DNA from: Desulfobacterales bacterium
GTDB lineage: Bacteria > Desulfobacterota > Desulfobacteria > Desulfobacterales > JAAELO01
Reading direction: 5' to 3'
Assembly: GCA_024226555.1 (NCBI GenBank)
Contig: JAAELO010000352.1
Coordinates: 1-43,913 of the forward strand
DNA: 43,913 nucleotides
In this document: piece after piece, positions 624 to 21,752 of the stretch
Layout: each line of letters opens with the position of its first letter
How positions within the stretch are numbered: the first letter of the stretch is position 1
The notes under the pieces: model-generated
Told to the model about the DNA's origin: nothing
Database searches by the model: none
The model's input: only the letters and a program-made list of their open reading frames with translations
Program-made: the position numbers and the translations under genes

Positions 624-1730
624 TCAATTCTTTTTCCGCATCATTTGCATCATAAGCTGTTTTTTTCCATTTTTATCAAGTTTATCTATAAAGCCACGAA
701 GGTCCTTAATATTTGAGATATCGATAAGGCCTGTTTGTAGCATATAATTAATATATTGCTGGTCTGTAACACTGTTTTGCCACACCCCGGATATCCGTGC
801 AGAGATACTTCCACCTAAGAACATCATAATAACTAAAACAGATATCATAACTGGTTTTAAAGCAGCCTTTTTTCCAGGCAGAGATAGCTTTAGAGTATTT
901 TTTTCCGGGCAGGCATCGATGCAACTGCCACAGGCAATGCACTCATCTGAAATTACAGTATTTTGATTGCTAATCACAATATTTGACGGGCATTTTTTAT
1001 CGCACTTGTTGCAGGATGTACAACTTTCTTCATCCCTTCTTATCTTAAAGGGACTTAAAAAACTTAAAAACCCTAAATAAGCACCATATGGACACAAATA
1101 TCTGCACCAGAAATTTTTAATTAAAACAGAAAGAATAAGAATAGCTAAAAATATTGTTAGAGCGAGTGGTGAAATGTTAACAAAAAAATCTAACATTTTG
1201 ATGTCTGAAACTACATTATATGGACTGTATAGAAATTGCTTAATTGCAAAAATATTCATTTTATAAAAAACTGTCCATATAAAAAACAGAAGTAATAAGT
1301 ACTTTATACTGCGTAGAAAATAATCAATAAATCTATTTACCTTCAAACCATTTTTAAAGATTCTGTAATGAATTTTTAATAGAAATTCTGAAATGAATCC
1401 GATTGGACAAACCCAACTGCAAAAACCTTTCTTAACTAACAGAGATATTGCTGTTATTAATCCAAATATAATCAAGCCCGATGGATGGATATCATTAACT
1501 ATTCCGGTCTTCAAAAAATATTTAAGGCTGATTAAAGCGCTTATAGGAAGAAAACCTTCAACCCCGGGTGGCCTTTGTACATCAGGCATCAGACCCATTT
1601 CGAGATAAGATACAAAAGAAGTAAAGTTGTAACCAATAAGAATTATTGTTAACAAAAAACCTAACTGAACAATATTTCTGTTATTTTTATAGCTCTTAAT
1701 TGAAAATATTTGTGATTTTTTATCACCCAT
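624..1730 (-). CDS. NapH/NosR-like membrane polyferredoxin
   Basis: 368 residues. Hydrophobic segments lie near residues 20-42, 83-100, 140-160, 185-205 and 291-310. Two C-x3-CP motifs (C104/C108 and C209/C213) follow membrane segments, as in the Fer4_5 domains of NapH, NosR and CcoG-like proteins. Two ferredoxin motifs follow, C237/C240/C243/C247 and C264/C267/C270/C274, enough for two [4Fe-4S] clusters. The protein probably passes electrons at or across the inner membrane. It is the last gene of a minus-strand cluster with an ABC transporter and periplasmic metal-type proteins, which suggests it reduces a metal or cysteine partner of that system; this is inference. It is not next to the nap genes of this window. 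Start ATG has AAGGA upstream. Confidence 0.8.
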   Translation of the reverse strand: MGDKKSQIFSIKSYKNNRNIVQLGFLLTIILIGYNFTSFVSYLEMGLMPDVQRPPGVEGFLPISALISLKYFLKTGIVNDIHPSGLIIFGLITAISLLVKKGFCSWVCPIGFISEFLLKIHYRIFKNGLKVNRFIDYFLRSIKYLLLLFFIWTVFYKMNIFAIKQFLYSPYNVVSDIKMLDFFVNISPLALTIFLAILILSVLIKNFWCRYLCPYGAYLGFLSFLSPFKIRRDEESCTSCNKCDKKCPSNIVISNQNTVISDECIACGSCIDACPEKNTLKLSLPGKKAALKPVMISVLVIMMFLGGSISARISGVWQNSVTDQQYINYMLQTGLIDISNIKDLRGFIDKLDKNGKKQLMMQMMRKKN

Positions 1731-2074: not shown

Positions 2075-2743
2075 TCAATTGACACACAGGCCATCCTGAA
2101 CCCTGATGATTCTTGTGGCATTCTTTAACATATTCTCATTATGGGTAACCATAATAACTGTTTGCCCCTTTTTGTTCAGGTCGTGCAAAAGATCCATAAT
2201 CTCACTGGATGTTTGTGAATCAAGATTACCGGTAGGCTCGTCTGCTAACAATATTGGTGGATTGTTAACAATTGCCCTTGCGATAGCTACTCTTTCCTGT
2301 TCTCCTCCTGAGAGTTGATCGGGAAGCATTGTTTTTTTATCCGAAAGACCTACCTTTTCAATTACGGAATCAGCCATCTCTTTCTGCTTTTTTTCTTTAA
2401 TACCAGCCACTGCCATTGGAAGTTTAACATTTTCATCCACGGTCAGATATGGAATAAGCTGGAATGATTGGAATATAATCCCTATATATTCACTTCTAAG
2501 GTCTGTTCGCTGCTCACTGGAAAGTCCATAAACATCTAAGGTATCAATCAGAACTTCACCATCGGAGGGTTTGTTTAATCCTCCGATTATAGAGAGCAAT
2601 GTACTCTTACCGGAACCCGATTGCCCCATTATTCCGACAAACTCTCCATCATCAATATGAAAATCCATATGTTTGATGGCAGTAACCTTAGTCCTTTTAC
2701 CATTATAAATTTTACTTATATTATTTACTTCTATCAGATGCAT
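2075..2743 (-). CDS. ABC transporter ATPase, LolD/MacB type
   Basis: 222 residues, the usual length for stand-alone LolD/FtsE-type ATPases. Walker A GQSGSGKST spans 40-48, the signature LSGGE 144-148, Walker B ILLADEP 164-170, and the switch histidine is H201 (VTHN). It pairs with the MacB/FtsX-type permease whose stop lies 15 bases upstream. Transporters of this class usually act as mechanotransmitters on periplasmic substrates, not as classic channels. In Campylobacter a similar set (DUF2318 protein, two permeases, ATPase) is linked to iron uptake with FTR1 and P19. No FTR1 or P19 gene is visible here, so the substrate is undefined. Confidence 0.9.
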   Translation of the reverse strand: MHLIEVNNISKIYNGKRTKVTAIKHMDFHIDDGEFVGIMGQSGSGKSTLLSIIGGLNKPSDGEVLIDTLDVYGLSSEQRTDLRSEYIGIIFQSFQLIPYLTVDENVKLPMAVAGIKEKKQKEMADSVIEKVGLSDKKTMLPDQLSGGEQERVAIARAIVNNPPILLADEPTGNLDSQTSSEIMDLLHDLNKKGQTVIMVTHNENMLKNATRIIRVQDGLCVN

Positions 2744-2758
2744 TAATAAATTCCTTTT

Positions 2759-3931
2759 TTACAAAGCTCTCAGAGCTTCACTTGGATCTAAATTACTTGC
2801 TTTAAAAGCTGGATACAAACTTGCTATAATGCTCAGGGATACAGATAAAACAATCGCTATAATGCTGGTTTCATAGTTTAATCCTGCAAAACTGCTTCCT
2901 TCCATAACAAGAGGTATGAATACTTTTGCTATTAAACAGCCTGTTATATATCCAATAATTCCACCAAGAACTCCAACTACCAATGCTTCAAGAAGAATAA
3001 TCTGCATAACGTGTGCTTTTCTGAAACCTATGGCTCTGAATATTCCTATCTCTCTTGTTCTCTCATTTACAGAACCCATCATTGTAACAAAAACAAGTAA
3101 AGACCCTATAATAACGACTAATACAGCTATTCCAAAAGTAAATGTTTTGAATGTATCAACACTTTGCATCTTGCTCATAACAGATTGCTTCAGTGCTGTG
3201 ACCTTCCCATCGGGAAATTTTTCAGCGATTTGTAAAACCATGTCAGATATGGGACAACCTCTACAGAAAGCAGCAATCTCAACCATTGATATTTTGCCCT
3301 CTTTATTAAGAGCTTTTTGGAAGCTTTTCAAATCTCCAATTATAATGTCATCCTCAGAAGAACCTGATTCTCCTAATACAGCGGTTATCCTGTAATCGAT
3401 TTTTCCTAATTTTACAGTATCTCCCTGGGATAGTTTAAAAACGTTTGCAACATCATTTCCAACCATTATCTCATTAGCTTTTTCAGGAATTTTTCCCTGG
3501 ATCATCCACCAGCTCTTAAGTGATACCTCCTTTTCAAAATCAACACCCATTAAAAGAACATCTTTATTATTAAGTTTTGTTATGCCTAATATTTTAGGTG
3601 CAACACTACCAAGGTTCTTGGAATTCTTAATCTCTTTAATTTTAGGGATATCAGATTCGTTGAACTCTTTGATCTCTAAATTCACTCCACCAACAGTCAT
3701 TCCACCATAGGTAAGAGAAAGAGTATCTGATTTAGGCATTAAAACAATATTGGCTCCAAATTTATTAAGCTTCTCCTCAATATCTCTTCCCATAGATTCA
3801 GAAACAGATAAAAGGGCGACTATTGTAGATATTCCTATTAAAAGTCCAAAAAGAAGAAAAACTATTTTTGCTTTCCGTCTCTTTATGTTGTTAAGGGAGA
3901 TATTATAAAGCTTCAAATTCTTTCTCCTCAT
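2759..3931 (-). CDS. ABC transporter permease, MacB/FtsX family
   Basis: 390 residues. An N-terminal membrane segment (about residues 22-45) is followed by a large periplasmic domain (about 50-260), then three C-terminal membrane segments ending in the family motif PAFKASNLDPSEALRAL. This is the MacB/LolC architecture. The periplasmic domain has an unusual C-x2-C (CRGC, within AAFCRGCPISD), a candidate metal or disulphide site that fits the cysteine-rich neighbours. The gene overlaps the preceding small gene by 29 bases, so the two are translationally coupled. The ATPase follows directly. Confidence 0.88.
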   Translation of the reverse strand: MRRKNLKLYNISLNNIKRRKAKIVFLLFGLLIGISTIVALLSVSESMGRDIEEKLNKFGANIVLMPKSDTLSLTYGGMTVGGVNLEIKEFNESDIPKIKEIKNSKNLGSVAPKILGITKLNNKDVLLMGVDFEKEVSLKSWWMIQGKIPEKANEIMVGNDVANVFKLSQGDTVKLGKIDYRITAVLGESGSSEDDIIIGDLKSFQKALNKEGKISMVEIAAFCRGCPISDMVLQIAEKFPDGKVTALKQSVMSKMQSVDTFKTFTFGIAVLVVIIGSLLVFVTMMGSVNERTREIGIFRAIGFRKAHVMQIILLEALVVGVLGGIIGYITGCLIAKVFIPLVMEGSSFAGLNYETSIIAIVLSVSLSIIASLYPAFKASNLDPSEALRAL

Positions 3932-4558: not shown

Positions 4559-5008
4559 CTACATAAATTTGCAATACCAGTCATTACTATTTATATCTGA
4601 CATTTTAATGATCAGATTTTTTCCATCGTTTGTTCTGTTTAGTGGTGCAGGATTACATCCACCCTTTACAACATTTATTCTTGTGGATAGAAATTTCATA
4701 CCACAATTATTACAAACCATGTAATCACCGGACTTAGCATAACCTTTACCAGATCTATAGCACACATCACAGGCATCAACAGCTGCTCTGTAAACACCAT
4801 CACTACTCTTCAATACAAAGAATTTCATATCGATATTATTTACCGATTTAACCTGAAAATAGTGAGCATCACCATTGTTAATGGTAGATAATGAGATAGA
4901 TACATTTCCATTTTTTGGTTTAAGAGTTTTATATTTACTGCCAAAAAAGGAGTAACCGGTTGTTGCCGACAAAAGCAGAATAATTGATATAGCTATAATT
5001 TTTTTCAT
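4559..5008 (-). CDS. DUF2318 family Fe-S/metal-binding periplasmic protein
   Basis: 149 residues with an N-terminal signal sequence (MKKIIAISIILLLSATTGYS). The core matches DUF2318: DACDVCYRSGKGY (C80, C83), VCNNCGMKF (C99, C102) and GGCNPAPL (C118). Members are annotated as Fe-S-containing or metal-binding and are found with ABC permeases and ferrous iron transporters. Some are fused to FTR1-like membrane regions; this one is the stand-alone exported form. It is second in a minus-strand operon after the HMA protein and before the transporter. Export and shuttling of a metal ion is the most economical reading. Confidence 0.85.
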   Translation of the reverse strand: MKKIIAISIILLLSATTGYSFFGSKYKTLKPKNGNVSISLSTINNGDAHYFQVKSVNNIDMKFFVLKSSDGVYRAAVDACDVCYRSGKGYAKSGDYMVCNNCGMKFLSTRINVVKGGCNPAPLNRTNDGKNLIIKMSDINSNDWYCKFM

Positions 5009-5109: not shown

Positions 5110-5502
5110 TTAATTACCGTAACAACCTTGCTGAGCACTGGTTCCGCAACAGCTTTGCCTTTTTTCCTCAGGGGCCTTTTTAACCTTATTCATATCAAAA
5201 ACATTGGTTGCAATGATCTTAGCCGGATAACCTGTTTTTGTTATGACCTCTTCGATATTTTTTGCATCGAGTGTTTCTTTATGTGCAACATATACTTCAC
5301 CTTTAAAAAGACTTGCTCCCATTTTAAGGAACCCATCAAGTTTCTTTAACTCTTCACTTATCCGGTAAAGGCAACTCCCACATGTAAGTTTACTCACTTT
5401 AAGATCCGTTTTGTAAACAACCTCTTTGGCATTCGCACTTGAAAATAGTAAAATGAGCATAAATATTAAAATAGATTGCTTAATATTTGGATACATTTTC
5501 AT
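5110..5502 (-). CDS. Exported heavy-metal-associated (HMA) domain protein
   Basis: 130 residues with a signal peptide (about residues 8-25, cleavage near SANA). The mature part is one HMA-like domain with the loop LTCGSCLYRI (C41, C44), followed by the expected helix and strands (GEVYVAHKE, TKTGYPAKI). A short cysteine-rich tail has C118, C119 and C127. HMA domains bind Cu(I) or other soft metals through the C-x2-C pair; being exported, this one would act as a periplasmic metal carrier. It is the first gene of the minus-strand cluster and lies just downstream of a good sigma-54 promoter, so its expression likely depends on the NtrC-type regulator encoded divergently. Confidence 0.85.
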   Translation of the reverse strand: MKMYPNIKQSILIFMLILLFSSANAKEVVYKTDLKVSKLTCGSCLYRISEELKKLDGFLKMGASLFKGEVYVAHKETLDAKNIEEVITKTGYPAKIIATNVFDMNKVKKAPEEKRQSCCGTSAQQGCYGN

Positions 5503-5553
5503 TTAGTTTTTCCTTTGTTAGTTTATCCGGTTATATTCAATCTCTGGAGAATT

Positions 5554-5572
5554 ATTACAAAGATTGTGCCAA
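5554..5572 (-). promoter_or_regulatory. Sigma-54 (-24/-12) promoter for the metal operon
   Basis: Read on the minus strand: TTGGCAC, AATCT, TTGTA. This is TGGCAC-N5-TTGT, the spacing and bases expected of a sigma-54 promoter (consensus TGGCAC-N5-TTGC), with the GG and the -12 element intact apart from the last C. Transcription would begin near 5545 and run into the HMA gene at 5502. An NtrC-family activator with an intact GAFTGA loop is encoded 1.3 kb away on the other strand. Confidence 0.75.
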
Positions 5573-5640
5573 AAAAACTGTTTTTATAAGTTACTGATTT
5601 GATGAATAAATTAAGAATTGTCATAATTTATAAATTTAGG

Positions 5641-5681
5641 ATTGTAGAATATTATAAAATAGGTGTAGAATATTCTACAAT
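5641..5681. promoter_or_regulatory. Palindromic activator-binding site (candidate)
   Basis: Contains a perfect 16-bp palindrome, TGTAGAATATTCTACA (5664-5679). A further half-site TTGTAGAATATT lies at 5642-5653, so the whole forms a 13-bp inverted repeat (5641-5653 and 5669-5681). It lies about 95-135 bp upstream of the predicted start of the minus-strand sigma-54 promoter, a typical enhancer position for an NtrC-type activator, and just upstream of the kinase gene. Caution: the right half merges into a fragment of the dispersed repeat (to 5695), so part of the symmetry could derive from it. Confidence 0.55.
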
Positions 5682-5720: not shown

Positions 5721-6803
5721 ATGAATAGAGTAAAATATGTTATTCTAATATCACTTGTTATAACAATATCGGCTCTGCACTATTTTACTCCCGGAAACCT
5801 GATGTTTCTCCATAATCTTTACAGTAAATTAAGCTATTTCCCTATTGTATTGGGAGCTGTTTTTTTTGGGATCCGAGGAGGATTGATATTCGCTATCCTA
5901 ACAACACTGGGTTTTACCCCCCATCTGATAATCTACAAAGGTCTGGGTGAAGATGTATATTTAAGTCAGTTTATTGAAATTGGGTTGTATTTCTCCATCG
6001 CCTTAATTGTAGGGTTTATTTCAGGTAAAGAAACATCTCTGAAGAAAAAGTATAAAAAAATATCAGAAGAACTCAACATCTCATATAAAAGATTACATGA
6101 AGAGACTGAGCTTTTGATTGACATAGAGGAACGTTTAAGAAAAAATCAAAAACTATCAGCACTGGGTGAACTTGCTGCATCCATTGCCCACGAGATAAAA
6201 AATCCATTAGCATCTATTAAAGGTGTATCAGAAATAATATCAGATGAGTTTAGAGATGACCATCCAAAAAAGAGTTTTATGGATATAATGGAAAAAGAGA
6301 TTACCAGGCTTGATTCTACAGTATCTGATATGCTTCAGAATTTTGCAGGTAAAGAGGAATATTCAGAAAAAGAGCTTAAATCTTTTCAGGAAATAATTGA
6401 TAGCATTACATCACTTCTTGATGAAAGAATTAATGGGAAAAAAGCAATTGTTAAATTTGATATAGATGACACAATTGATCTTCTTGATTCAAAAAGATGC
6501 TATCAGATCTTTTTTAACTTAATCCTCAATGCCATTGATGCAATCGATGATGAAGGTGAGATAAAAATATCATCTAAAAAAGAGGTTGATAATCTAATAT
6601 TTTCTATTGATGATAATGGCCCTGGAGTTTCTGATGATCAACGTGAGGAAGTATTTAAGCCATTTTATACTGCAAAAAAAGGTGGTACAGGTCTTGGACT
6701 TTCCATATGTAGAAAAATTGCAGAAAGTCTTAATGGTACGATAACTATTAATGAATCCCAATTAGGAGGAGCATCATTTAAAGTGACTCTTCCAGTAAAA
6801 TAA
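5721..6803 (+). CDS. Membrane sensor histidine kinase
   Basis: 360 residues. The N-terminal ~100 residues hold about four hydrophobic segments with very short loops, so the signal is probably sensed in or at the membrane. A short coiled-coil linker (105-145) precedes the dimerisation domain with phosphoacceptor H157 in IAHEIKNPL, then the ATPase domain with an N box (FFNLILNAIDAID), the G1 box DDNGPG and the G2 box GGTGLGLSI. This organisation is typical of the NtrB/ZraS-like kinases that partner NtrC-type regulators. The regulator gene starts 24 bases downstream. Start ATG chosen as it opens the first membrane segment. Confidence 0.9.
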   Translation: MNRVKYVILISLVITISALHYFTPGNLMFLHNLYSKLSYFPIVLGAVFFGIRGGLIFAILTTLGFTPHLIIYKGLGEDVYLSQFIEIGLYFSIALIVGFISGKETSLKKKYKKISEELNISYKRLHEETELLIDIEERLRKNQKLSALGELAASIAHEIKNPLASIKGVSEIISDEFRDDHPKKSFMDIMEKEITRLDSTVSDMLQNFAGKEEYSEKELKSFQEIIDSITSLLDERINGKKAIVKFDIDDTIDLLDSKRCYQIFFNLILNAIDAIDDEGEIKISSKKEVDNLIFSIDDNGPGVSDDQREEVFKPFYTAKKGGTGLGLSICRKIAESLNGTITINESQLGGASFKVTLPVK

Positions 6804-6827: not shown

Positions 6828-8174
6828 ATGAATCAGATATTACTTATAGATGATGATGATAATCTAAGAAAAGTCGCAGCATATAATCTTGAAACCTATG
6901 GTTTTTCGGTCTTGACAGCAGCTTCTGGTAATGAAGGTTTAGAAAAAATAAAAATAAGTAAGCCGGATGTTGTAATTTCTGATGTTAAATTAGGCGATAT
7001 TGATGGGCTTTCCCTGCTTGAAATTATAAAGAGTGATTTTCCAGATCTTCCGGTAATTATAATTACAGCGTTTGGAACGATTGAGATGGCTGTTAAAGCA
7101 ATGAATCAGGGCGCTTTTCACTTCATCACAAAACCATTCGATAGAGATTCTTTAAGGCAAAGTGTTATGAAAGCCCTTGAACATATAAACCTTAAATCAG
7201 ACAATATCACTCTTTCAGAAGAGATAAACAGAATAACCGGGACAAGCGGAATAGTTTCTGTTAACAGTGCTGTTCGTGAGCTTCTTGAAACTGCAAAACT
7301 GGCTGCAGATTCCAATGCATCTATCCTTATCACCGGAGAATCAGGAACAGGAAAGGAACTGCTTGCAAGAGTTATACATGATAATAGTAGAAGAAGTAAA
7401 AGACCTATGCTTGCTGTTAATTGCGCATCAATTCCAGAATCTCTTATTGAAAGTGAACTTTTTGGTCATGTGAAAGGTGCATTTACAGGTGCTGTTAAGG
7501 ACAGAAAAGGTAAATTTATAGCTGCTTCAGGTGGAACGCTCTTTCTTGATGAAATAACTGAATTAAAAATAGATCTCCAGGCAAAATTATTAAGAACTCT
7601 TCAGGAAAGTGAGATAACAAGGGTAGGGTCTGAATTAACAGAAAAGATCGATGTCAGGATTATCAGTGCTGCCAACGTGGATTTTTCTGAAGCTATTCAA
7701 AATGGATTGTTCCGTGATGATCTTTACTATAGGTTGGGAGTAATTCCACTTCATCTTCCACCTCTTCGCGAAAGAAAAGATGATATACCAGGGCTTATTG
7801 AACACTTTTTGAGAACCCTTGATTTTCCTGGAGGGGTTAAATTTAGTGATGAAGCCATATCAGAACTCATGGTTTATGGGTGGCCGGGAAATATCCGGGA
7901 ACTTAAAAATACAGTAGAAAGATGTGTTATCCTTTGTAAAAACAGTATCATTAATAAAGAGGATTTAAGACTATTTCCAATTAAAAAACAGGAAGCACCA
8001 TCGTATATTCCTGAAATACCGGATGAAGGTATTTCACTTGAAGAAGTTGAAAAAAGTCTGATAAAAAAAGCACTTGAAAAAGCGGGTAATAACCAAACAA
8101 AAGCAGCAAAACTTCTTAAAATTCCAAGACATGTTTTGATATACAGACTCGATAAATACAAAATACAGATTTAA
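6828..8174 (+). CDS. NtrC-family sigma-54-dependent response regulator
   Basis: 448 residues. A receiver domain (1-120) has phosphorylatable D52 and the acidic pocket DDDD at 8-11. The AAA+ domain has Walker A GESGTGKE (170-177), the sigma-54 contact loop GAFTGA (217-222) and Walker B-like GGTLFLDE. A Fis-type helix-turn-helix (about 405-448, [21 protein letters not shown]) ends the protein. All features needed to activate sigma-54 promoters are present. It pairs with the upstream kinase. The best target in the window is the sigma-54 promoter at 5554-5572, which would make this a ZraSR-like switch for the metal operon; that link is inference. Confidence 0.92.
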
Positions 8175-8189
8175 TTGGAAAGGTATAAA

Positions 8190-8591
8190 ATGAATTTCAG
8201 GCAAAATTTAAAATACATTAATTTATTGTTACTGATTGTAATAGTCGGATGTTTGAGACCTAACATCTTTTTTGATGAAGATGATATTAAAGAGGTAAGG
8301 TTTGTTACTCACTCATATTCAGAAGTTAAGGGTAAATCTTCAGAAGTAAAAATAATTGACCAAAAACATGTTACAAAATTACTTTCTGTTTTAAGAAAAA
8401 GCAGAAGTGTTGAAAGTTGTAAATGCGTTGGGCGTGAATATTTGGAATTCGAACTTATTAACAACAAGGTTGTATCCTTTCAAATTATTCAAATTCCTGA
8501 TAAAGATAAAATTCTTTTTAAAGACTGGATTACTACTTTCAAAGCAGGTAAAAAAGAGTTACTGAAAGCTCTTAATTTAGGCAGTCGTTAA
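8190..8591 (+). CDS. Small lipoprotein with CxC motif
   Basis: 133 residues. A lipoprotein signal (LLLIVIVGC, lipobox VGC) leads to a short acidic region (FFDEDDIKEV) and a soluble domain with SCKCVGREYLEFEL, a conserved C-x-C. A TTG start at 8175 is possible, but ATG 8190 is preceded by GGAAAGG at a proper distance and opens directly into the signal peptide. It begins just after the regulator stop, so it is cotranscribed. A broken paralogue follows. Function unknown; co-location with a metal operon and the conserved cysteines allow a sensing or binding role. Confidence 0.75.
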   Translation: MNFRQNLKYINLLLLIVIVGCLRPNIFFDEDDIKEVRFVTHSYSEVKGKSSEVKIIDQKHVTKLLSVLRKSRSVESCKCVGREYLEFELINNKVVSFQIIQIPDKDKILFKDWITTFKAGKKELLKALNLGSR

Positions 8592-9152: not shown

Positions 9153-9288
9153 GGGAACTTTAATAATTAGCAATAAAGTGTATAAATAAAACAAAAATTC
9201 CTTTAGCTTTTTAAATAAACATGGTGTAGACTCTAAAACAGTATCAACTTAAATCTCCAATCAAAATTTTAATTTAAAGGTGGAATGT
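9153..9288. repeat. Degenerate MITE left end and leader of CMD gene
   Basis: GGGAACTTTAATAATTAG at 9153-9170 matches the left terminus of the dispersed element; beyond it the match fades and no right end is seen. The remaining bases lead into the next gene, with the ribosome-binding site AAAGGTGG at 9277-9284. Confidence 0.5.
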
Positions 9289-9606
9289 ATGTATCTTCCA
9301 GATAAATATAAGAATTTTTCATCAGAATACCCTGAGATTTTTCAACTATATAAAGATTTAGGCACAAATGTCAGAGAATCAGGTCCTTTGGATGAAAAAG
9401 CCCAGAACCTGATCAAATTAGGTATCGCTGTTGGCTCAAGCTCAAGAGGTGGTGTTATGTCACATACAAGAAAAGCTCTTGAAAGTGGTTCCACAAAGGA
9501 AGAGATTAAGCATGCTATTCTTCTGGCTTTGTCCACAACAGGTTTTCCCGCAATGATTGCTGCGCTTAACTGGGCAAATGAAGTTTTGGAGAAAGATGGA
9601 AAATAA
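9289..9606 (+). CDS. Carboxymuconolactone decarboxylase (AhpD-like) family protein
   Basis: 105 residues, all one CMD-type helical domain: LDEKAQNLIKLGIAVGSSSRGGVMSHTRKALESGSTKEEIKHAILLALSTTGF. The family framework (helix, histidine H59, G-x-T-x-EEI) is clear. The C-x2-C pair of peroxidase-type AhpD proteins is replaced by SSRG, so it is not a thiol peroxidase. ATG 9289 is preferred over GTG 9280 because AAAGGTGG sits at the right distance. The stop overlaps the FmdE-like gene by 11 bases, so both are coupled. Role unknown. Confidence 0.8.
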   Translation: MYLPDKYKNFSSEYPEIFQLYKDLGTNVRESGPLDEKAQNLIKLGIAVGSSSRGGVMSHTRKALESGSTKEEIKHAILLALSTTGFPAMIAALNWANEVLEKDGK

Positions 9607-10204
9607 AGATGAGTTTGAAACGCTTTTAAAAGGATCTGCCAAAGAACATGGTCACATTTGTCCCGGTCAGGTCATTGGAGTTCGCATGGCTCTTTTAGGT
9701 CTTGATCTTATAGGCCTAAAAGATCCAAAAAATACCAGGGATATAAAAAAAATAATTGTTTATGTAGAGATTGATAGATGTGCAACAGATGCTATTTCAT
9801 ATGTAACAGGTGTAAAGCTTGGTAGAAGGTCTTTAAAATTTAAAGATTATGGAATTATGGCAGCTACATTTATAAACCTTGAAACAAATAAAGCTTTTAG
9901 GGTTCTTTCAACAGAAGAATCGAGAGAGTTAGCTTTAAAGTATACCACATTAGAGACAAATATCCATTCCCGGCAGTTGGAAGCTTATAAGATAATGCCT
10001 CTTTCAGAGCTTTTCGAAGTTACTGAGGTTGAAGTAGATATAAAAGATTCAGATATGCCAGGCCCTTCAAAGTATAAAGCAACCTGTGAAAAATGCGGAA
10101 TCGTTGTGCGGGATGCTAAAGAAGTTATTATTAATAGCCGCACTCTTTGTAATTTTTGTGCAGATCTTGGTTATTATAATGAAAAAAATAGTGTAAAAAT
10201 TTAA
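9596..10204 (+). CDS. FmdE-like (formylmethanofuran dehydrogenase subunit E) protein
   Basis: 202 residues. The N-terminal domain carries the FmdE signature HGHICPGQVIGVRMALLGL, with H18, H20 and C22, then DRCATDAI. The C-terminus has a zinc-ribbon-like CEKCG...CNFC. FmdE proteins accompany molybdenum or tungsten enzymes, and related proteins occur widely in anaerobes without methanogenesis. Here it lies directly before napD and napA, so a role in molybdenum cofactor supply for the NapA enzyme is plausible, though not proven. ATG 9596 is internal to the end of the upstream gene, an 11-base overlap. Confidence 0.85.
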   Translation: MENKDEFETLLKGSAKEHGHICPGQVIGVRMALLGLDLIGLKDPKNTRDIKKIIVYVEIDRCATDAISYVTGVKLGRRSLKFKDYGIMAATFINLETNKAFRVLSTEESRELALKYTTLETNIHSRQLEAYKIMPLSELFEVTEVEVDIKDSDMPGPSKYKATCEKCGIVVRDAKEVIINSRTLCNFCADLGYYNEKNSVKI

Positions 10205-10216
10205 TTATTTTTACAC
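10191..10216 (+). terminator. Weak AT-rich hairpin after FmdE gene
   Basis: GTGTAAAAAT (10191-10200) and ATTTTTACAC (10207-10216) form a 10-bp stem with a 6-base loop that includes the FmdE stop codon. It has little GC and no following T-run, so termination would be inefficient. Confidence 0.35.
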
Positions 10217-10330
10217 TTTCTAATTTAAAACTGTTTTTTATTGTCGAATAAATGACATTAAAATTCAGACCCTTATAGTTCAAAAGCCTTATTAAATAAG
10301 TTTTTATGTTGATTTTTAACTGGTCATTAA

Positions 10331-10347
10331 GTACCATTTTGTGGTAC
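10331..10347. promoter_or_regulatory. Inverted repeat GTACCA-N5-TGGTAC upstream of napD
   Basis: GTACCATTTTGTGGTAC is a perfect 6-bp inverted repeat about 47 bases before the napD start. It may be an operator for the respiratory genes. I see no FNR-type TTGAT-N4-ATCAA nearby. The regulator is unknown. Confidence 0.35.
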
Positions 10348-10393
10348 ATGATTTTCGTTTCAAAATAATTTAACAAATCTAAATGGAGAGAAA

Positions 10394-10621
10394 ATGCCAA
10401 TTTTTAGTTTTCTTGTCTATCCTGAAAAAAACATGAAAGAGACGTTAATCGATGAACTTTCATCAATGGATTACTGTGAGGCGACTCCATCGGATAACGA
10501 AGATGTAGTAATTTTACTAATGGACACACCCGATGAAGAGACAGGTAAAAATCTTATAAACGAAATTAAGGAACTTCCGTCTCTTCAATCATTAAGTTTG
10601 ACCTTCGGACACGTAGATTAG
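10394..10621 (+). CDS. napD: NapD-like chaperone
   Basis: 75 residues with the small ferredoxin-like fold of NapD: first strand FSFLVYPEKN, a helix (KETLIDELSSM), strands CEATPSDNEDVVILLMDTP and a final LSLTFGHVD. NapD binds the twin-arginine signal of NapA and delays export until the molybdenum cofactor is loaded. Position directly upstream of napA supports this. Sequence similarity alone is modest at this size. SD GGAGAG precedes the ATG. Confidence 0.72.
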   Translation: MPIFSFLVYPEKNMKETLIDELSSMDYCEATPSDNEDVVILLMDTPDEETGKNLINEIKELPSLQSLSLTFGHVD

Positions 10622-10760
10622 GGGAACCTATAATTATTAGTTTTTTGGTTGAAATACAGCGTTTATATATCTCTGCGTGAGAAAAAATAAATAGAGTAAA
10701 CAAAATTAAATCGCTTTTGTTTTATTGTAGTTCGGTCAAAAGGCAATTATTAGAGTTTCC
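10622..10760. mobile_element. Degenerate MITE between napD and napA
   Basis: Begins GGGAACCTATAATTATTAG directly at the napD stop and ends GGCAATTATTAGAGTTTCC. The middle still has the GGTTGAAATACA and TTCGGTCAAAAGG blocks of the family. No clean target duplication is left, so it is an old insertion. It separates napD from napA and could lower or segment cotranscription. Confidence 0.7.
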
Positions 10761-10794
10761 TTTTAAAATTTATTATCAATAAAGGAGTGTTGTG

Positions 10795-13110
10795 ATGACT
10801 ATTACCAGAAGAGATTTTATCAGGAAGATGGCTTTAAACAGTGCAGCCGTTGCAGCAACAGCCATGTTTCCAGGAGTAAGTTTCTCTGGCTGGAAGCCAA
10901 ATGACCTGCCAGCTAACTCTATTAAATGGAGAAAAACCCCATGCCGTTTCTGTGGTACAGGTTGTGGCCTCCTCGTAGGTATTTCAGGAAAACGTGCTGT
11001 TGCAGTAAAGGGAGATCCAAACTGTTCTGTTAATAAAGGACTTTGCTGTGTAAAAGGTTATCATTCCGTACAAATTCTTTATGGTAAAGACAGATTTAAG
11101 AATGCATATGTCAGGAAAAATGGCAAATTAGTCAAAACTCCTATTAAAGAAGCTCTTGATATCGTTGCAAAAAAGATGCAGGAATCCATAAAGAAAAAAG
11201 GCAAAGACTCTGTAGCAATCTATGGTTCCGGGCAATGGTCAATACCAGATGGTTATGTTGCATCAAAGTTTTTTAAAGGATGTATCGGGACCAATAATGT
11301 GGAAGCAAATGCAAGACTTTGTATGGCAAGTGCTGTTACAGGTTGCCTGACAAGTTTTGGGCTTGATGAACCAATGGGTTGTTATGAAGACATTGATAAC
11401 GCGAATGTTTTTGTAACATGGGGAAACAATATGGCAGAGATGCATCCGGTACTTTTCTCAAGGATGCTTGCAAACAGAAAGACAAGAAATGATGTTGAAA
11501 TTATTGATCTCACAACACGTATGACCCGCTCCAGTCAGGCTGCTGATAAATCCTTCATATTTAACCCCCAATCCGATTTAGCAATTGCAAATGCAATTTG
11601 TTATGAAATCATTAGAAATGGCTGGGTAAATAAAAGTTTCGTAAAAAAACACGTTTCCTTCCATGAAGGCAAAACCAATATTGGATATGGAACAAAAGAT
11701 CATTTCAAATTTAAAGATAAAGCTAATACAGTTGGTTTTAACGAATATAAAAATTTCTTAAAAGATTATACTCCTGAAAAAGCAGAAATGATTTCAGGCG
11801 TTCCTGCTGAAGATATTAAATATCTGGCAGCCCAGTATGGTAATCCCGAGAAGAAAGTAACCTCTTTCTGGACAATGGGAATGAATCAGCATACAAGAGG
11901 AACATGGATGAATAATCTTGTATATAACATTCATCTTCTCACAGGAAAAATTTCATCTCCCGGAAACAGTCCATTTTCTTTAACAGGTCAGCCAAGCGCA
12001 TGTGGAACTGTTAGAGAGGTTGGAACTTTAACTCATAAGCTTCCACATGGCGTAGTCATGAACAAAAAATCAAGGGAGATGGCTGCAAAAATTTGGGGGG
12101 TTCCTGAAAAAAATATAGATCCTAAACCAACATATCATACCGTTGAGATGTTCAGAGCACTCGACCGGGGCGATATCAATTTTATGTGGATTCAGGTTAC
12201 CAATCCAATGGTTACAATGCCGAATTTAAAACGATATCGGGATGGTGCGAAAAAAGATGGAAGATTTATGGTTGTTTCTGAGATCTATCCAACACCAACG
12301 TCAGATGTTGCAGATGTGATCTTACCTTCAGCACTATGGATTGAAAGAGAAGGTTTTTTTGGAAATTCAGAAAGAAGAACCCAACATAATGATCAGCTCG
12401 TACCAATGCCAGGAGAAGCAATGTGTAACACATGGCAGATCATTCAGGTAGCAAGAAGACTCGGTTTTAAAAAGCAATTTCCATGGAAGCAGGAAAACTA
12501 TATTGAAAATATCTGGAATGAATATACTAAATTCCACGATTCCCCTAAACACAGAATGGCTCCCTATAAAGTATTAAAAGAACGCTCAGGTGTTCAATGG
12601 CCATTTGTTGAAGGAAAAGAAACAAGATGGAGATACAACGGAGAATTCGATCCTGCATGTAAAGACAAAACATGGGATTTCTACGGTAAGAAAGATCACA
12701 AGGCATGGATCTGGTTACGTCCATACGAGCCACCGGCAGAATCTCCAGACAGAAAATATCCTTTCTGGCTTAACACAGGAAGAGTTCTTGAGCACTGGCA
12801 TACAGGTTCAATGACAAGAAGGGTTCCAATTCTACATAAGGCTGTTCCTGAATCCTATGTGGAAATAAATCCTGATGATGCCAAAGATCTTGGAGTAGTT
12901 AATGGCAGCAAAGTTAAGATTATATCAAGAAGGGGTTCCATTGTAATGAAAGCAATGATTAATGGCCGGGGAAACCCTACAAAGGGTCAGGTTTTTGTTC
13001 CCTTCTTCGATGAAAACTACCTTATCAATGAAGTTACTCTAGATGCTTTTTGTCCAATATCCAAGCAGCCCGATTATAAAAAATGTGCTGTAAAACTGGA
13101 GAAAGTATAA
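10795..13110 (+). CDS. napA: Periplasmic nitrate reductase catalytic subunit, NapA type
   Basis: 771 residues. A Tat signal (TRRDFIRK) opens the protein. The [4Fe-4S] ligands are C50, C53, C57 and C85 (PCRFCGTGCG...GLCCVKGY), with the Lys of CVKGY that relays electrons in Nap enzymes. C176 in ANARLCMASAV is the expected molybdenum ligand. Further family blocks are AEMHPVLFSR, GQPSACGTVREVG and the C-terminal LNTGRVLEHWHTGSMTRR. This fits the ~750-residue NapA lacking extra inserts. It would reduce nitrate in the periplasm, although related MGD enzymes with other oxyanion substrates cannot be excluded. ATG 10795, not GTG 10792, has the better distance to AAAGGAG. It overlaps the next gene by one base (TAATG). 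Confidence 0.9.
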   Translation: MTITRRDFIRKMALNSAAVAATAMFPGVSFSGWKPNDLPANSIKWRKTPCRFCGTGCGLLVGISGKRAVAVKGDPNCSVNKGLCCVKGYHSVQILYGKDRFKNAYVRKNGKLVKTPIKEALDIVAKKMQESIKKKGKDSVAIYGSGQWSIPDGYVASKFFKGCIGTNNVEANARLCMASAVTGCLTSFGLDEPMGCYEDIDNANVFVTWGNNMAEMHPVLFSRMLANRKTRNDVEIIDLTTRMTRSSQAADKSFIFNPQSDLAIANAICYEIIRNGWVNKSFVKKHVSFHEGKTNIGYGTKDHFKFKDKANTVGFNEYKNFLKDYTPEKAEMISGVPAEDIKYLAAQYGNPEKKVTSFWTMGMNQHTRGTWMNNLVYNIHLLTGKISSPGNSPFSLTGQPSACGTVREVGTLTHKLPHGVVMNKKSREMAAKIWGVPEKNIDPKPTYHTVEMFRALDRGDINFMWIQVTNPMVTMPNLKRYRDGAKKDGRFMVVSEIYPTPTSDVADVILPSALWIEREGFFGNSERRTQHNDQLVPMPGEAMCNTWQIIQVARRLGFKKQFPWKQENYIENIWNEYTKFHDSPKHRMAPYKVLKERSGVQWPFVEGKETRWRYNGEFDPACKDKTWDFYGKKDHKAWIWLRPYEPPAESPDRKYPFWLNTGRVLEHWHTGSMTRRVPILHKAVPESYVEINPDDAKDLGVVNGSKVKIISRRGSIVMKAMINGRGNPTKGQVFVPFFDENYLINEVTLDAFCPISKQPDYKKCAVKLEKV

Positions 13111-13790
13111 TGAAAAAACCAGATCTTAAAAATTTGAAACTGTTTTTCATATTCTCAGGAGTCTGTACTTTAGCTTTAATAATAGTAGTTTTTATTGGTT
13201 TTTCCTTTAAATCGGAAAAGAACCTTGCAAAAGTAAACAAATATAAGGCTTCTGATTTTGATCATAAAGCAAAACAGTTTTTCGATAAATATAAAGAGGT
13301 AACTCCTTTCTACATGGAAGGTGTTTCAACCAAAAGGACTTTTAATCAATACTATTCTCTAAGGCAATATCCAGGTTCTCCTCCTTATATTACGCATGAA
13401 CAGTTCGATGATAAAGGCGTTCAGCTTGAATGTCTTTCATGTCACGAAAAGGGTGGTTTTGCAAAAGCTATGAAGAATTACACACCTGTAACTCCTCACC
13501 CACAGCACACTTATTGCATTCAATGTCATGTTAAGCCTCAGACTGACAAGCTATTTAAAGGCCATGACTGGGTAAGTGTTAACATACCAAAGCTGGGTAG
13601 ATCTGCACTACCCGGATCACCACCGCCAATTGCTCACTCACTGCAAATGCGTGAAAATTGCATTGCATGTCATGTGGGGCCTGGCACTGTTGTTCCTATT
13701 CGTGTAAATCATACAATGAGAGGAAGTTGCAGGCAGTGTCATGTACCTTTTGAGGTGGAAGGTGTTTTTAAAAGAAAGAACAGTAAATAG
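13110..13790 (+). CDS. Tetraheme cytochrome c with NapB-like C-terminal half
   Basis: 226 residues, anchored by one N-terminal membrane segment (11-31). Heme motifs CxxCH are at 108-112, 136-140, 184-188 and 207-211. The C-terminal half (SPPPIAHSLQMRENCIACH...PIRVNHTMRGSCRQCHVPFEVEG) reads like the diheme NapB. The N-terminal half adds two further hemes. It is thus a four-heme NapB variant, unlike the usual two-heme soluble subunit, and would pass electrons to NapA. It starts within the napA stop (TAATG). Confidence 0.85.
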   Translation: MKKPDLKNLKLFFIFSGVCTLALIIVVFIGFSFKSEKNLAKVNKYKASDFDHKAKQFFDKYKEVTPFYMEGVSTKRTFNQYYSLRQYPGSPPYITHEQFDDKGVQLECLSCHEKGGFAKAMKNYTPVTPHPQHTYCIQCHVKPQTDKLFKGHDWVSVNIPKLGRSALPGSPPPIAHSLQMRENCIACHVGPGTVVPIRVNHTMRGSCRQCHVPFEVEGVFKRKNSK

Positions 13791-13806
13791 GATAGGAGTT
13801 GTTAAT

Positions 13807-14412
13807 TTGAAGAACCTTAAAAAAACAAAGTATTTTTTTGGGATAGTTATCATCACCTTCTTTGCATTCACTGCATTTTCAAGTGAGGGTGTGGTCTCTA
13901 AAATAAAAAATGCCAACAAAAAAACTGATAAGTCCACCGGGATTCACAAATCAATATCCCTGCCTAAAAATGTTGTAAAAGTGAAAGAAGATTATCAGGG
14001 CGGTGTTTTTTATACTAAATCCCGGAAAAGTGAAATAACCAGATATAAATGTAGTTCCTGTCATAAAACGCAAAAGAAAGTAATGAAAAATGCTGCCAAT
14101 ATTACCCATGGTGACATTCAGGTTGTTCATGGTGGAAAAAATAAACTTGAATGTAATACTTGCCACAGTAAAAATGACAGAAACTTTCTTGTAACAGCAA
14201 AAGGAACAAAAGTTGACTTTGATCATGTATACAATCTATGTGGACAATGTCATTTCAGGCAAAAGAAGGATTGGATAGGTGGAGCCCATGGAAAAAGGAT
14301 TACATACTGGGCTGGAGAAAGGGCAGTAAAGAACTGTACTGCTTGTCATAATCCACACTCGCCTCTCTTTAAAAAAAGATGGCCAAAAACATACTCTGTT
14401 CCTCTTAAATAG
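13807..14412 (+). CDS. Tetraheme cytochrome c
   Basis: 201 residues with a signal peptide or membrane anchor (9-26) and four heme motifs: CSSCH 82-86, CNTCH 116-120, CGQCH 145-149 and CTACH 177-181. The spacing and extra histidines (H101, H108, H140, H161) allow bis-histidine ligation, resembling the small NrfH/NapM-type or class III tetraheme cytochromes. TTG 13807 is chosen because AGGAG lies 9 bases upstream and the signal peptide starts there; an ATG at 13741 would lie deep inside the upstream gene. It probably relays electrons between the ferredoxin/NrfD module and the NapB-like cytochrome. Confidence 0.82.
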   Translation: MKNLKKTKYFFGIVIITFFAFTAFSSEGVVSKIKNANKKTDKSTGIHKSISLPKNVVKVKEDYQGGVFYTKSRKSEITRYKCSSCHKTQKKVMKNAANITHGDIQVVHGGKNKLECNTCHSKNDRNFLVTAKGTKVDFDHVYNLCGQCHFRQKKDWIGGAHGKRITYWAGERAVKNCTACHNPHSPLFKKRWPKTYSVPLK

Positions 14413-18328: not shown

Positions 18329-18871
18329 TTATTCACCAAAATCATCAGGATCAAGATCAATACCTCCCCAATCAGGAGAATAAATCCCTTCCTCCACATT
18401 TCTGTGAAATGTTGAAAATTCCCAATCTTTTACATTTTTTACAAGCTTATGTTTTACCGGATTATAATGGATATAATCGAAATGATTATTATAATTTTCC
18501 TGATCTTCAATTCGATGTTCCCAAAAACGTCTTTGCCAAATTGTGGATTCGTTTCTCTTTCTTCTCGAATTGTTCATCCATTCATCCTTATGAAAAAGAT
18601 GTTTAACTTTTCTGGTAAATGTTGATTTAATAATCCTCCACCTTAAAGCAACATCACGATCATTATCTGGCAAAGCCCACAAACAATGCATATGATCAGG
18701 AAGTAAAACCCATGCTTCAATTTTAAATAGATATTTATTTCTCACAAAATTTATAGATTCCCTCAGAGCATTTCGACAGAATGGATCTTTAAAAAGAGGC
18801 CTTCTTCTGAATGTTACAAGGGTAAAAAAATATAAATTCCCTGCTTCTCGGTATCTTCGATAATTCGGCAT
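18329..18871 (-). CDS. REP-associated tyrosine transposase (RAYT, Y1/IS200-like)
   Basis: 180 residues, the standard RAYT length. It opens with NYRRYREAGNLYFFTLVTFRRRPLF, has the metal-binding HUH motif H60-M-H62 in LLPDHMHCLW, the block STIWQRRFWEHRI, and the tyrosine motif FDYIHYNPVKHKLV. RAYTs are single-copy, domesticated relatives of IS200 transposases that cut at REP hairpins. The gene stands alone and is bracketed by inverted REP-like repeats, as expected of an autonomous REP unit. The open frame looks intact, so it may be active. Confidence 0.9.
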   Translation of the reverse strand: MPNYRRYREAGNLYFFTLVTFRRRPLFKDPFCRNALRESINFVRNKYLFKIEAWVLLPDHMHCLWALPDNDRDVALRWRIIKSTFTRKVKHLFHKDEWMNNSRRKRNESTIWQRRFWEHRIEDQENYNNHFDYIHYNPVKHKLVKNVKDWEFSTFHRNVEEGIYSPDWGGIDLDPDDFGE

Positions 18872-20175: not shown

Positions 20176-21741
20176 ATGAAAAGGCCAGTTGTATTTTTAT
20201 TTATCAGTTTCGTTTTGTACCTTGGAACTGCCTTGGGAGAGCCTGTACCAAAAAAAGGAGGGGAGCTGTTCATTGCGCAAAATGCAGATGCTGTTTCACT
20301 GGATCCCGCCAGAATAACCGAATCCGAGTCCGGCAAAATATCTGGAAATATCTATGAGGGGCTTGTGGGTTATCATGACGATTCCACCGAGGTACAACCA
20401 AAACTTGCGACTTCCTGGGAAACGTCCAGGGATGGAAAGAAATGGATATTCCATTTGCGCAAGGGGGTTAGATTTCATGACGGGACCCCTTTCAATGCAG
20501 AAGCGGTGGCGTTTTCATTTTTAAGACAAATTGACAAAAAACACGCTTATTATCGGGAATATTCCCCATATTCTGATTTTACGTTTAAATATGTAAAGCA
20601 AGTGAATGTCGTGGATGAGTATACGATAAAAATAATTTTAGATAAAGCATATGCGCCTTTTCTTTATAACCTGGCTATGTCAGCTGCTACGCCAATTATC
20701 AGTCCTACAGCTTTTAAAAAGTGGGGGGATGACTTTGAAAAACATCCTGTGGGGACCGGCCCGTTTAAATTTAAGGAGTGGATTCCAAACAATCGGGTTG
20801 TTCTGGTTGCAAATACAGATTATTGGGGACGTACCCCTTTTCTAAACAAGTTGATTTTTCGTCCGATTACAAATATTTCTACTCGTTTTGAAGAATTTCT
20901 GAGAGGCCGTATTCATGTGATGGATGGAATCGCACCAAAAGATATTCCAAAAATAAAACAAATGCCGGGTGGAAAACTATTTGTGCAACCCGGACTGAAC
21001 ATAGCTTACATTGGGATGAATACTGAGAAGAAGCCCTTTGGCCAGATCAAAGTGAGGAAAGCTATCAATTATGCGATCAACAAACGCAATTTAATCAAGC
21101 TTATTTATAAAAATCTTGCCATACCTGCCAAAAACCCTATCCCCCCTACGATTTGGGGGTATAATGATAATATTGAAGATTATGAATACAGTACCAGAAA
21201 AGCAAAGCAGTTATTAAAAGAAGCGGGATTTAAAAACGGGTTTAAAACGACCCTCTCGATAACGGATATTTCACGGCCATACCTGCCACAACCCAAAAAA
21301 ATCGCAAGAGCGATCAAGTCAAATCTTTCGGCTGTCGGTATCAAAGCAAAAATCGTATCCTATGATTGGAGAACCTATCTAAGAAAGCTCCAAAATGGAG
21401 AACACGACATGTGCTTATCAGGATGGCTGGGAGACAATGGTGATCCGGATAATTTTCTTTATGTACTTCTGGATCAGGACAATTTAATTAAACCCAAATC
21501 CACAAATTTCGCATTTTTTAAATACCAGAGACTTCATGATATTTTGATAAAAGCGCAGCAAATTACTAATAAACAGAAACGTATTAAACTTTACCGCAAG
21601 GCTCAGGAAATTATCCATGACCAGTCACCATGGGTGCCTTTGGCACATGCCCAAAAAATCGCAGCTTTTCAAAAAAAAGTTCATGGGGTTGTTTTTCATC
21701 CAACCGGTATAATACTGTTTCACAGGGCATGGATAGAGTAA
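20176..21741 (+). CDS. Peptide/nickel-type (family 5) extracellular solute-binding protein
   Basis: 521 residues with a signal peptide (1-21, cleavage after LG or GEP). Family-5 blocks are clear: GGELFIAQNADAVSLDPARI, NIYEGLVGY, ATSWETSRDGKKWIFHLRKGVRFHDGTPFNAEAVAFSF, HPVGTGPFKFKEWIPN, the domain hinge, and DMCLSGWLGDNGDPDNFLYVLL. These proteins bind oligopeptides, nickel chelates or sugars for ABC importers. No permease or ATPase gene follows; instead there is a paralogue and a large sensor kinase. A periplasmic sensing role is therefore proposed, as inference. Confidence 0.88.
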   Translation: MKRPVVFLFISFVLYLGTALGEPVPKKGGELFIAQNADAVSLDPARITESESGKISGNIYEGLVGYHDDSTEVQPKLATSWETSRDGKKWIFHLRKGVRFHDGTPFNAEAVAFSFLRQIDKKHAYYREYSPYSDFTFKYVKQVNVVDEYTIKIILDKAYAPFLYNLAMSAATPIISPTAFKKWGDDFEKHPVGTGPFKFKEWIPNNRVVLVANTDYWGRTPFLNKLIFRPITNISTRFEEFLRGRIHVMDGIAPKDIPKIKQMPGGKLFVQPGLNIAYIGMNTEKKPFGQIKVRKAINYAINKRNLIKLIYKNLAIPAKNPIPPTIWGYNDNIEDYEYSTRKAKQLLKEAGFKNGFKTTLSITDISRPYLPQPKKIARAIKSNLSAVGIKAKIVSYDWRTYLRKLQNGEHDMCLSGWLGDNGDPDNFLYVLLDQDNLIKPKSTNFAFFKYQRLHDILIKAQQITNKQKRIKLYRKAQEIIHDQSPWVPLAHAQKIAAFQKKVHGVVFHPTGIILFHRAWIE

Positions 21742-21752
21742 AAAGGTGAATC

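Follow-up and report, generated by a model that had tools for sequence, protein, structure and literature searches.

Positions 5554–5681 of the window (the whole 43,913-nt stretch of Desulfobacterales DNA analyzed here) most likely act as the regulatory region of a sigma-54 switch that responds to metal, located between two divergent units (Table 1). We estimate at about 0.88 the probability that a metal-sensing NtrC-type two-component system activates the HMA–DUF2318–ABC operon from this region, through a tandem of enhancer sites and a sigma-54 promoter. A first, sequence-only reading had proposed such a link from the window alone. Because the combination of tandem and sigma-54 site recurs before heavy-metal genes in Geobacter-like bacteria, this initial guess is now well supported and can be extended. 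In particular, the enhancer is sharpened to a tandem of two sites phased at 21 bp, which occurs at a single place in the source genome.

Table 1 Features of the control region and of the two divergent units.
Feature	Position	Strand	Basis
NapH/NosR-like membrane polyferredoxin (operon membership uncertain)	624–1730	-	Pfam, NCBIfam
LolD/MacB-type ABC ATPase	2075–2743	-	Pfam, NCBIfam
MacB/FtsX-type ABC permease	2759–3931	-	Pfam
Membrane-anchored protein, 145 aa	3903–4340	-	No Pfam or NCBIfam match
DUF2318/FtrD-like protein, CxxC motifs	4559–5008	-	Pfam PF10080
Exported HMA-domain protein, CGSC and Cys-rich tail; leads the target operon	5110–5502	-	Pfam HMA, translation
Predicted -24/-12 sigma-54 promoter, TGGCACAATCTTTGT	5557–5571	-	Sequence; position kept in relatives
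IHF-like site AATCAGTAACTTA (tentative)	5587–5599	-	One mismatch to WATCAANNNNTTR; enhancer–promoter gap
Enhancer site B, near-palindrome TGTAGAATATTATAAA, two mismatches	5643–5658		Sequence; 20–22-bp spacing peak
Enhancer site A, perfect palindrome TGTAGAATATTCTACA, equal to the family consensus	5664–5679		Sequence
Sensor histidine kinase: N-terminal helical membrane domain, HisKA, HATPase	5721–6803	+	Pfam, alignments, model
NtrC-type response regulator: receiver, GAFTGA AAA+, Fis-type HTH with PRHVLIYR	6828–8174	+	Pfam, translation

Promoter and enhancer elements in the window

The putative promoter TGGCACAATCTTTGT, read on the minus strand from 5571 to 5557, lies upstream of the HMA gene and is the sole exact match to TGGCAC-N5-TTGY in the window. 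It carries the GG and the G of the -24/-12 element at their fixed spacing, and its -12 part ends in TTGT, not TTGC, as is common in the family (T-final in 22 of 70; motif counts were made on 70 matches with ≤4 mismatches). When one mismatch was allowed, the window contained four matches against a mean of 3.6 after shuffling, and the promoter taken alone is thus weak evidence. By arithmetic on the -24/-12 spacing, the HMA transcript is predicted to start near 5545, which would leave a 5' leader of ~43 nt ahead of the HMA ATG at 5502.

About 100 bp upstream of this promoter, a palindrome accompanied by a half-site had originally been noted. The palindrome stands, while the half-site gives way to a second near-palindrome (site B), the two sites being 21 bp apart from start to start. 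Counted from where the -24 element begins, this tandem is located 72–108 bp upstream; relative to a transcription start at 5545, its two sites would be centered near -105 and -126. Site B scores at the low end of the family range (PWM 10.5–12.2), with a poor right half. The best other single site in the window by PWM (position 20553, score 16.6) was rejected as a further target, being unpaired and inside a peptide-binding-protein gene; this belongs to a pair of neighboring, tandemly arranged genes at 20176–23321 (+) for ABC proteins of the peptide-binding type that closely resemble each other. Between enhancer and promoter, the window also contains one match, its position assigned by eye, to the IHF motif WATCAANNNNTTR. 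IHF-like sites were found in 25 of 80 such enhancer–promoter gaps, compared to a mean of 6.35 and a maximum of 17 after shuffling.

Across the 7.69-Mb source genome, the 16-mer TGTAGAATATTCTACA was found once, with ~0.01 occurrences expected from the base composition of the window, and a degenerate tandem (TGNNGAATANTCNNCA, 5 bp, TGNNGAATANTCNNCA, ≤3 mismatches) was also found once, with 0 for the control. Single sites with ≤3 mismatches numbered 82, against 74 for the reversed control, which suggests that the regulator probably has one strong target in this genome. A genome search for additional pairs of palindrome and -24/-12 element, as initially suggested, came back empty: the tandem occurs nowhere else, and six other places with two mismatches (L003–L008), searched with their surroundings, displayed no tandem and no convincing sigma-54 site. 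At one of these (L003), a two-mismatch sigma-54-like site lies 15 bp from the palindrome, too close for a usual enhancer. The genome includes one gene with an RpoN DNA-binding domain.

Conservation of the tandem enhancer across relatives

The family of the source genome contains no other genome. Across the phylum, relatives of the N-terminal domain of the kinase were detected (E ≤ 0.001) in 107 of 395 genomes; of the 16 others belonging to its order, only 3 had a match, and a weak one. The stretches surrounding the 35 best relative places were taken, and a scan of named genomes with the domain alignment provided 80 further loci. Most of these came from Desulfuromonadales and Geobacter relatives, some from Chlorobiaceae, including Chlorobium ferrooxidans, and one from a Rhodoferax MAG contig. 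Including the window, this yielded 116 loci (1,756,281 bases), 115 of which hold relatives of the divergent kinase; since the loci are related and the sets of 35 and 80 partly consist of the same records, counts across them are not independent.

Upstream of the relatives' sigma-54 sites, a similar tandem was repeatedly seen by manual inspection. A systematic scan (tandem with ≤5 mismatches and 20–22-bp spacing, sigma-54 site with ≤2 mismatches 40–130 bp further on) returned 88 matches in 62 of the 116 loci, and a fully palindromic version of the motif returned 78 matches in 59 loci. When 20 shuffled palindromes were passed through the same scan, 19 yielded 0 matches and one yielded 2. A deduplicated rescan, keeping the best match per place, gave 84 matches, of which 80 were unique, three loci (L051, L077, and L161) each being counted twice for one promoter. 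Spacing between the two sites (≤3 mismatches, regardless of any promoter) was similarly constrained, with 15 tandems at 20 bp, 27 at 21 bp, and 11 at 22 bp, and never more than two at any other spacing in the range 16 to 69. The consensus over 138 sites, computed with the window excluded, was TGTAGAATATTCTACA, i.e., the same as the window palindrome, and the distance from tandem to sigma-54 site in relatives was 51–107 bp, kept across other gene orders.

The tandem was also linked to gene content. For sigma-54 sites with ≤1 mismatch, window excluded, it accompanied 41 of the 43 that immediately precede HMA, DUF2318, TolC, or Met-rich genes and 8 of the 122 remaining ones. The P value of this contrast has to be read with caution, because the loci are related and some of the reference genes had been chosen from loci already known to carry the motif. 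In the 395-genome sample, the tandem (≤3 mismatches) was detected in 21 genomes, versus 2 for the reversed control; 15 of these 21 belong to the 107 with the kinase domain, and in several of the 21 the site is inside an unrelated gene and looks like chance. At loci with a PRH-type regulator, a tandem was nearby in 43 of 88 cases, the other 45 having none in the stretch examined (some stretches are short, or targets may lie elsewhere). For non-PRH regulators the count was 0 of 4, a contrast that says little as one of these four loci (L106) is just cut off by a contig end.

Overall, the DNA elements, their conservation and phasing, and their association with this kinase–regulator family and with metal genes are established by computation. 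The sigma-54 promoter and NtrC-type enhancer of the sequence-only reading are both upheld as predicted elements, because they recur together beside orthologous kinase–regulator genes, and the proposed link to a metal operon is likewise made probable by the same arrangement upstream of metal genes in relatives.

Predicted target genes

In the window, the expected HMA, DUF2318, and ABC components of the target operon are all present, and the membership of the polyferredoxin in the transcript is uncertain given the 344-bp gap ahead of its gene. The DUF2318 gene is the sole PF10080 gene found in the source genome. The 145-aa protein had no match in Pfam and NCBIfam searches, and its structure model was unusable (mean pLDDT 48.7). 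Neither the polyferredoxin nor the 145-aa protein was found in any of the 115 other loci, which makes the operon a local variant to which the polyferredoxin may not belong. Regarding other metal transport functions, the source genome (97.95% complete) contained no detectable FTR1/FetM permease, with the control positive in 4 of 14, and no heavy-metal RND pump (TIGR00914) over cut-off, the best of 20 matches scoring 368.7 bits for a cut-off of 701.45. It contains one Cu-type P-ATPase over cut-off, and the tandem is absent at that locus (L187).

Across relatives, a DUF2318 gene was near the kinase in 9 of the 35 best loci, several of them with kinase and regulator in one gene run, and DUF2318 was detected in 38 of the 116 loci (window included), although it is rare in the phylum as a whole, with 49 matches in 44 of 198 whole genomes. 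Behind the relatives' tandem we identified HMA–DUF2318–permease–ATPase runs, a Met/His-rich periplasmic protein, and TolC-type genes. Gene order varied: at L047, where the kinase is the nearest relative (46% identity), the tandem precedes a TolC gene instead of HMA; at three loci (L087, L088, and L095) it lies at a distance from the kinase gene, and a sigma-54-like site and then an HMA gene again come after it; and at one (L083) it is upstream of a DUF2318-like gene that itself follows a P-type-ATPase-like gene (both assigned by eye). Based on Pfam, the genes at a Chlorobiaceae MAG locus (L120) include HMA–DsbD_2–cupredoxin, DUF305, and a P-type ATPase with HMA, and those at L169 an outer membrane efflux protein (OEP) and a CusB-type adaptor with a heavy metal binding domain (HMBD). 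These copper-type themes suggest that the enhancer targets of relatives handle soft metals, most likely Cu(I) rather than zinc.

Several additional arrangements were observed. Five loci (L053, L055, L057, L127, and L169) contain a small Met/His-rich periplasmic protein and a CusCB-type efflux run, each behind its own enhancer copy, so that in Geobacter relatives one regulator may run two operons. In two related genomes (L092 and L093), the tandem lies at a distance from the kinase gene and precedes a further NtrC-type regulator gene, so that a regulator cascade is possible there. Finally, kinase relatives at L068 and L071 sit beside SCO1-like and cytochrome oxidase genes (from translations), another copper-type setting.

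The divergent kinase and regulator

The kinase and regulator genes are divergent from the HMA operon, and the anticipated NtrC-type identity of the regulator is borne out by Pfam (receiver, sigma-54 AAA+, and Fis HTH domains) and by a GAFTGA motif in its translation. Upstream of its HisKA and HATPase domains, the kinase has no Pfam family over cut-off in residues 1–144, and no HAMP domain was matched by Pfam. This sensor domain was modeled as all helix, with four helices in order (mean pLDDT 85.2), and the model had no fold match in the PDB at E ≤ 0.001. An alignment of 24 sequences (A1) displayed 12 invariant columns, including His20, Tyr21, Thr23, His31, Tyr39, Pro41, His68, and Glu86, and these eight residues were also invariant in 43 other sequences (alignment A2). 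The peptide pattern used to collect loci favors His31 and Tyr39 in A2, whereas A1 is free of this bias. From this conservation, we infer a candidate soft-metal site in the membrane domain of the kinase.

Other genes of the window were also reviewed. Directly downstream of the regulator, positions 8193–8591 (+) encode a small predicted lipoprotein (lipobox-like LIVIVGC) without a Pfam or NCBIfam match, which may belong to the sensor operon. Farther downstream, a gene run at 9280–14412 (+) includes a carboxymuconolactone decarboxylase family protein (Pfam) and, judging from translations, FmdE-like and NapD-like proteins, a periplasmic nitrate-reductase-like molybdoenzyme, and multihaem cytochromes. 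A look-alike of REP-associated tyrosine transposases is encoded at 18329–18871 (-), also from translation.

Proposed mechanism and alternative explanations

In the mechanism we favor, the N-terminal membrane domain would bind a metal, probably a soft metal like Cu(I), and the kinase thus activated would phosphorylate the NtrC-type regulator. Regulator dimers would occupy both sites, which at 21 bp apart would be on the same DNA face, and the bound regulator would assemble its AAA+ ring. The DNA would loop, perhaps with the help of IHF, and the regulator could then open the sigma-54 polymerase complex at the predicted promoter, turning on the HMA–DUF2318–ABC operon. Binding by this regulator and activation are inferred here, as are the nature of the signal, the metal involved, and the role of the operon.

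The strongest competing view, which we regard as unlikely, accepts the same wiring and questions the signal: the membrane domain would respond to the redox state or to stress at the envelope, and metal genes would be one of the outputs. This would be consistent with a sensor domain lacking a Pfam match over cut-off or a PDB fold match (E ≤ 0.001), with redox-type proteins in the operon (the CxxC-containing DUF2318 protein and the polyferredoxin), and with the nitrate-reductase-like and cytochrome cluster identified from translations downstream of the regulator genes. However, the enhancer targets of relatives are repeatedly metal-export or metal-binding proteins, and three His and one Glu invariant in 24 sequences would make a natural soft-metal site.

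It is less probable still that the window carries an iron-uptake operon under an iron-responsive switch, similar to Campylobacter fetABCDEF, even if its DUF2318 protein, FtsX-type permease, and ATPase resemble fetA–fetD as presented in the available text of PMC10783030. No FTR1/FetM permease was found in the 97.95%-complete source genome, CusB/TolC and P-type ATPase genes, i.e., export functions, are under the same enhancer in relatives, and fetMP–fetABCDEF is described in that text as being under Fur control (PMC10783030).

The palindromes could also serve another regulator, or mainly the autoregulation of the kinase–regulator genes. Site A ends 41 bp from the kinase ATG, and sigma-70-like hexamers overlap the region (5, at most about two standard deviations above a shuffled mean of 2.6, sd 1.5). 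Nevertheless, we consider this very unlikely as the main function, since the 51–107-bp distance between tandem and sigma-54 site is kept in relatives with other gene orders and the tandems of L087, L088, and L095 do not adjoin regulator genes. Autoregulation in addition to control of the HMA operon is quite possible: given the proximity of site A to the kinase start codon, bound regulator could damp or tune its own gene. As for a chance co-occurrence of an AT-rich palindrome and a promoter-like match, the latter is near chance expectation when taken alone, but conservation refutes this explanation (single tandem in the source genome, shuffles, spacing peak, 41/43 versus 8/122, and consensus).

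Returning to the metal-responsive switch, its implications extend beyond the window. Tentatively, and at somewhat less than even odds, the HMA–DUF2318–FtsX-type ABC set may represent an unrecognized Cu(I)-type soft-metal handling or export system. It would use the same sigma-54 enhancer code as Cus-type efflux and would take the place of such efflux in this genome, where no heavy-metal RND pump scored over cut-off, with a kinase that would sense metal through a new kind of membrane domain with three invariant His and one Glu. The analysis provides a regulon definition for metal defense in Geobacter-like bacteria, comprising a binding code, spacing, promoter, and regulator family. The binding code is clear and testable, and the sensor domain offers clear residues for testing.

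Comparison with known systems

The system had initially been described as ZraSR-like. In E. coli, ZraSR pairs an NtrC-type regulator with a HisKA kinase, is linked to metals, and acts on sigma-54 promoters. The window fits this general logic alone: its kinase and regulator differ from ZraSR in sensor domain and target genes, and their NCBIfam scores for ZraS (169.7 bits, cut-off 479) and ZraR (381.3 bits, cut-off 760) were far under cut-off and below those for AtoS and AtoC. CusRS and CopRS control periplasmic copper export, and their regulators are of the OmpR type and use sigma-70. Several of the relatives' enhancer targets are likewise Cus-type (TolC, CusB), but the regulator of the window is NtrC-type.

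Within the literature searched (subscription papers lay outside the search), the exact 16-mer TGTAGAATATTCTACA was in no paper, and no site or sigma-54 metal regulator of this kind was described for Geobacter-like bacteria. For G. sulfurreducens, the available text of PMC7726332 reports that cobalt induces another RND system and reports no CusF. PMC2725144 contains 0 mentions of "copper", "efflux", or "heavy metal", and PMC4641369, PMC3333781, and PMC2825233 contain no passage relevant to the terms searched.

In Campylobacter jejuni, fetABCDEF places a DUF2318 protein beside an FtsX-type permease and an ATPase in iron acquisition, and runs with FetM/FetP and Fur for iron (PMC10783030, available text). 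In contrast, the operon of the window is HMA-led, under predicted sigma-54 control, and in a genome where no FTR1 was found. The DUF2318–ABC module, hitherto studied for iron uptake, is tied here to metal-export genes.

Sigma-54-dependent metal regulators are already known, namely ZraSR and, as described in the available text of PMC3707914, the Myxococcus xanthus two-component system CorSR, which raises copper-tolerance genes and has four putative sigma-54 promoters. The terms "binding site" and "tandem" are absent from the main text of that paper as available (PMC3707914). CorS is presented there as combining a signal peptide and a single membrane helix with a periplasmic sensor region and a HAMP domain (PMC3707914), whereas the kinase of the window has a modeled multi-helix N-terminal membrane domain and no detected HAMP. 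On the target side, the CorSR curA operon encodes a cupredoxin, DUF305, and CopA (PMC3707914, available text), and a cupredoxin, DUF305, and a P-type ATPase are also found among the Chlorobiaceae enhancer targets. In relatives, this enhancer precedes heavy-metal genes, for which copper is the probable metal. CorSR looks nearer in function to the system of the window than ZraSR does.
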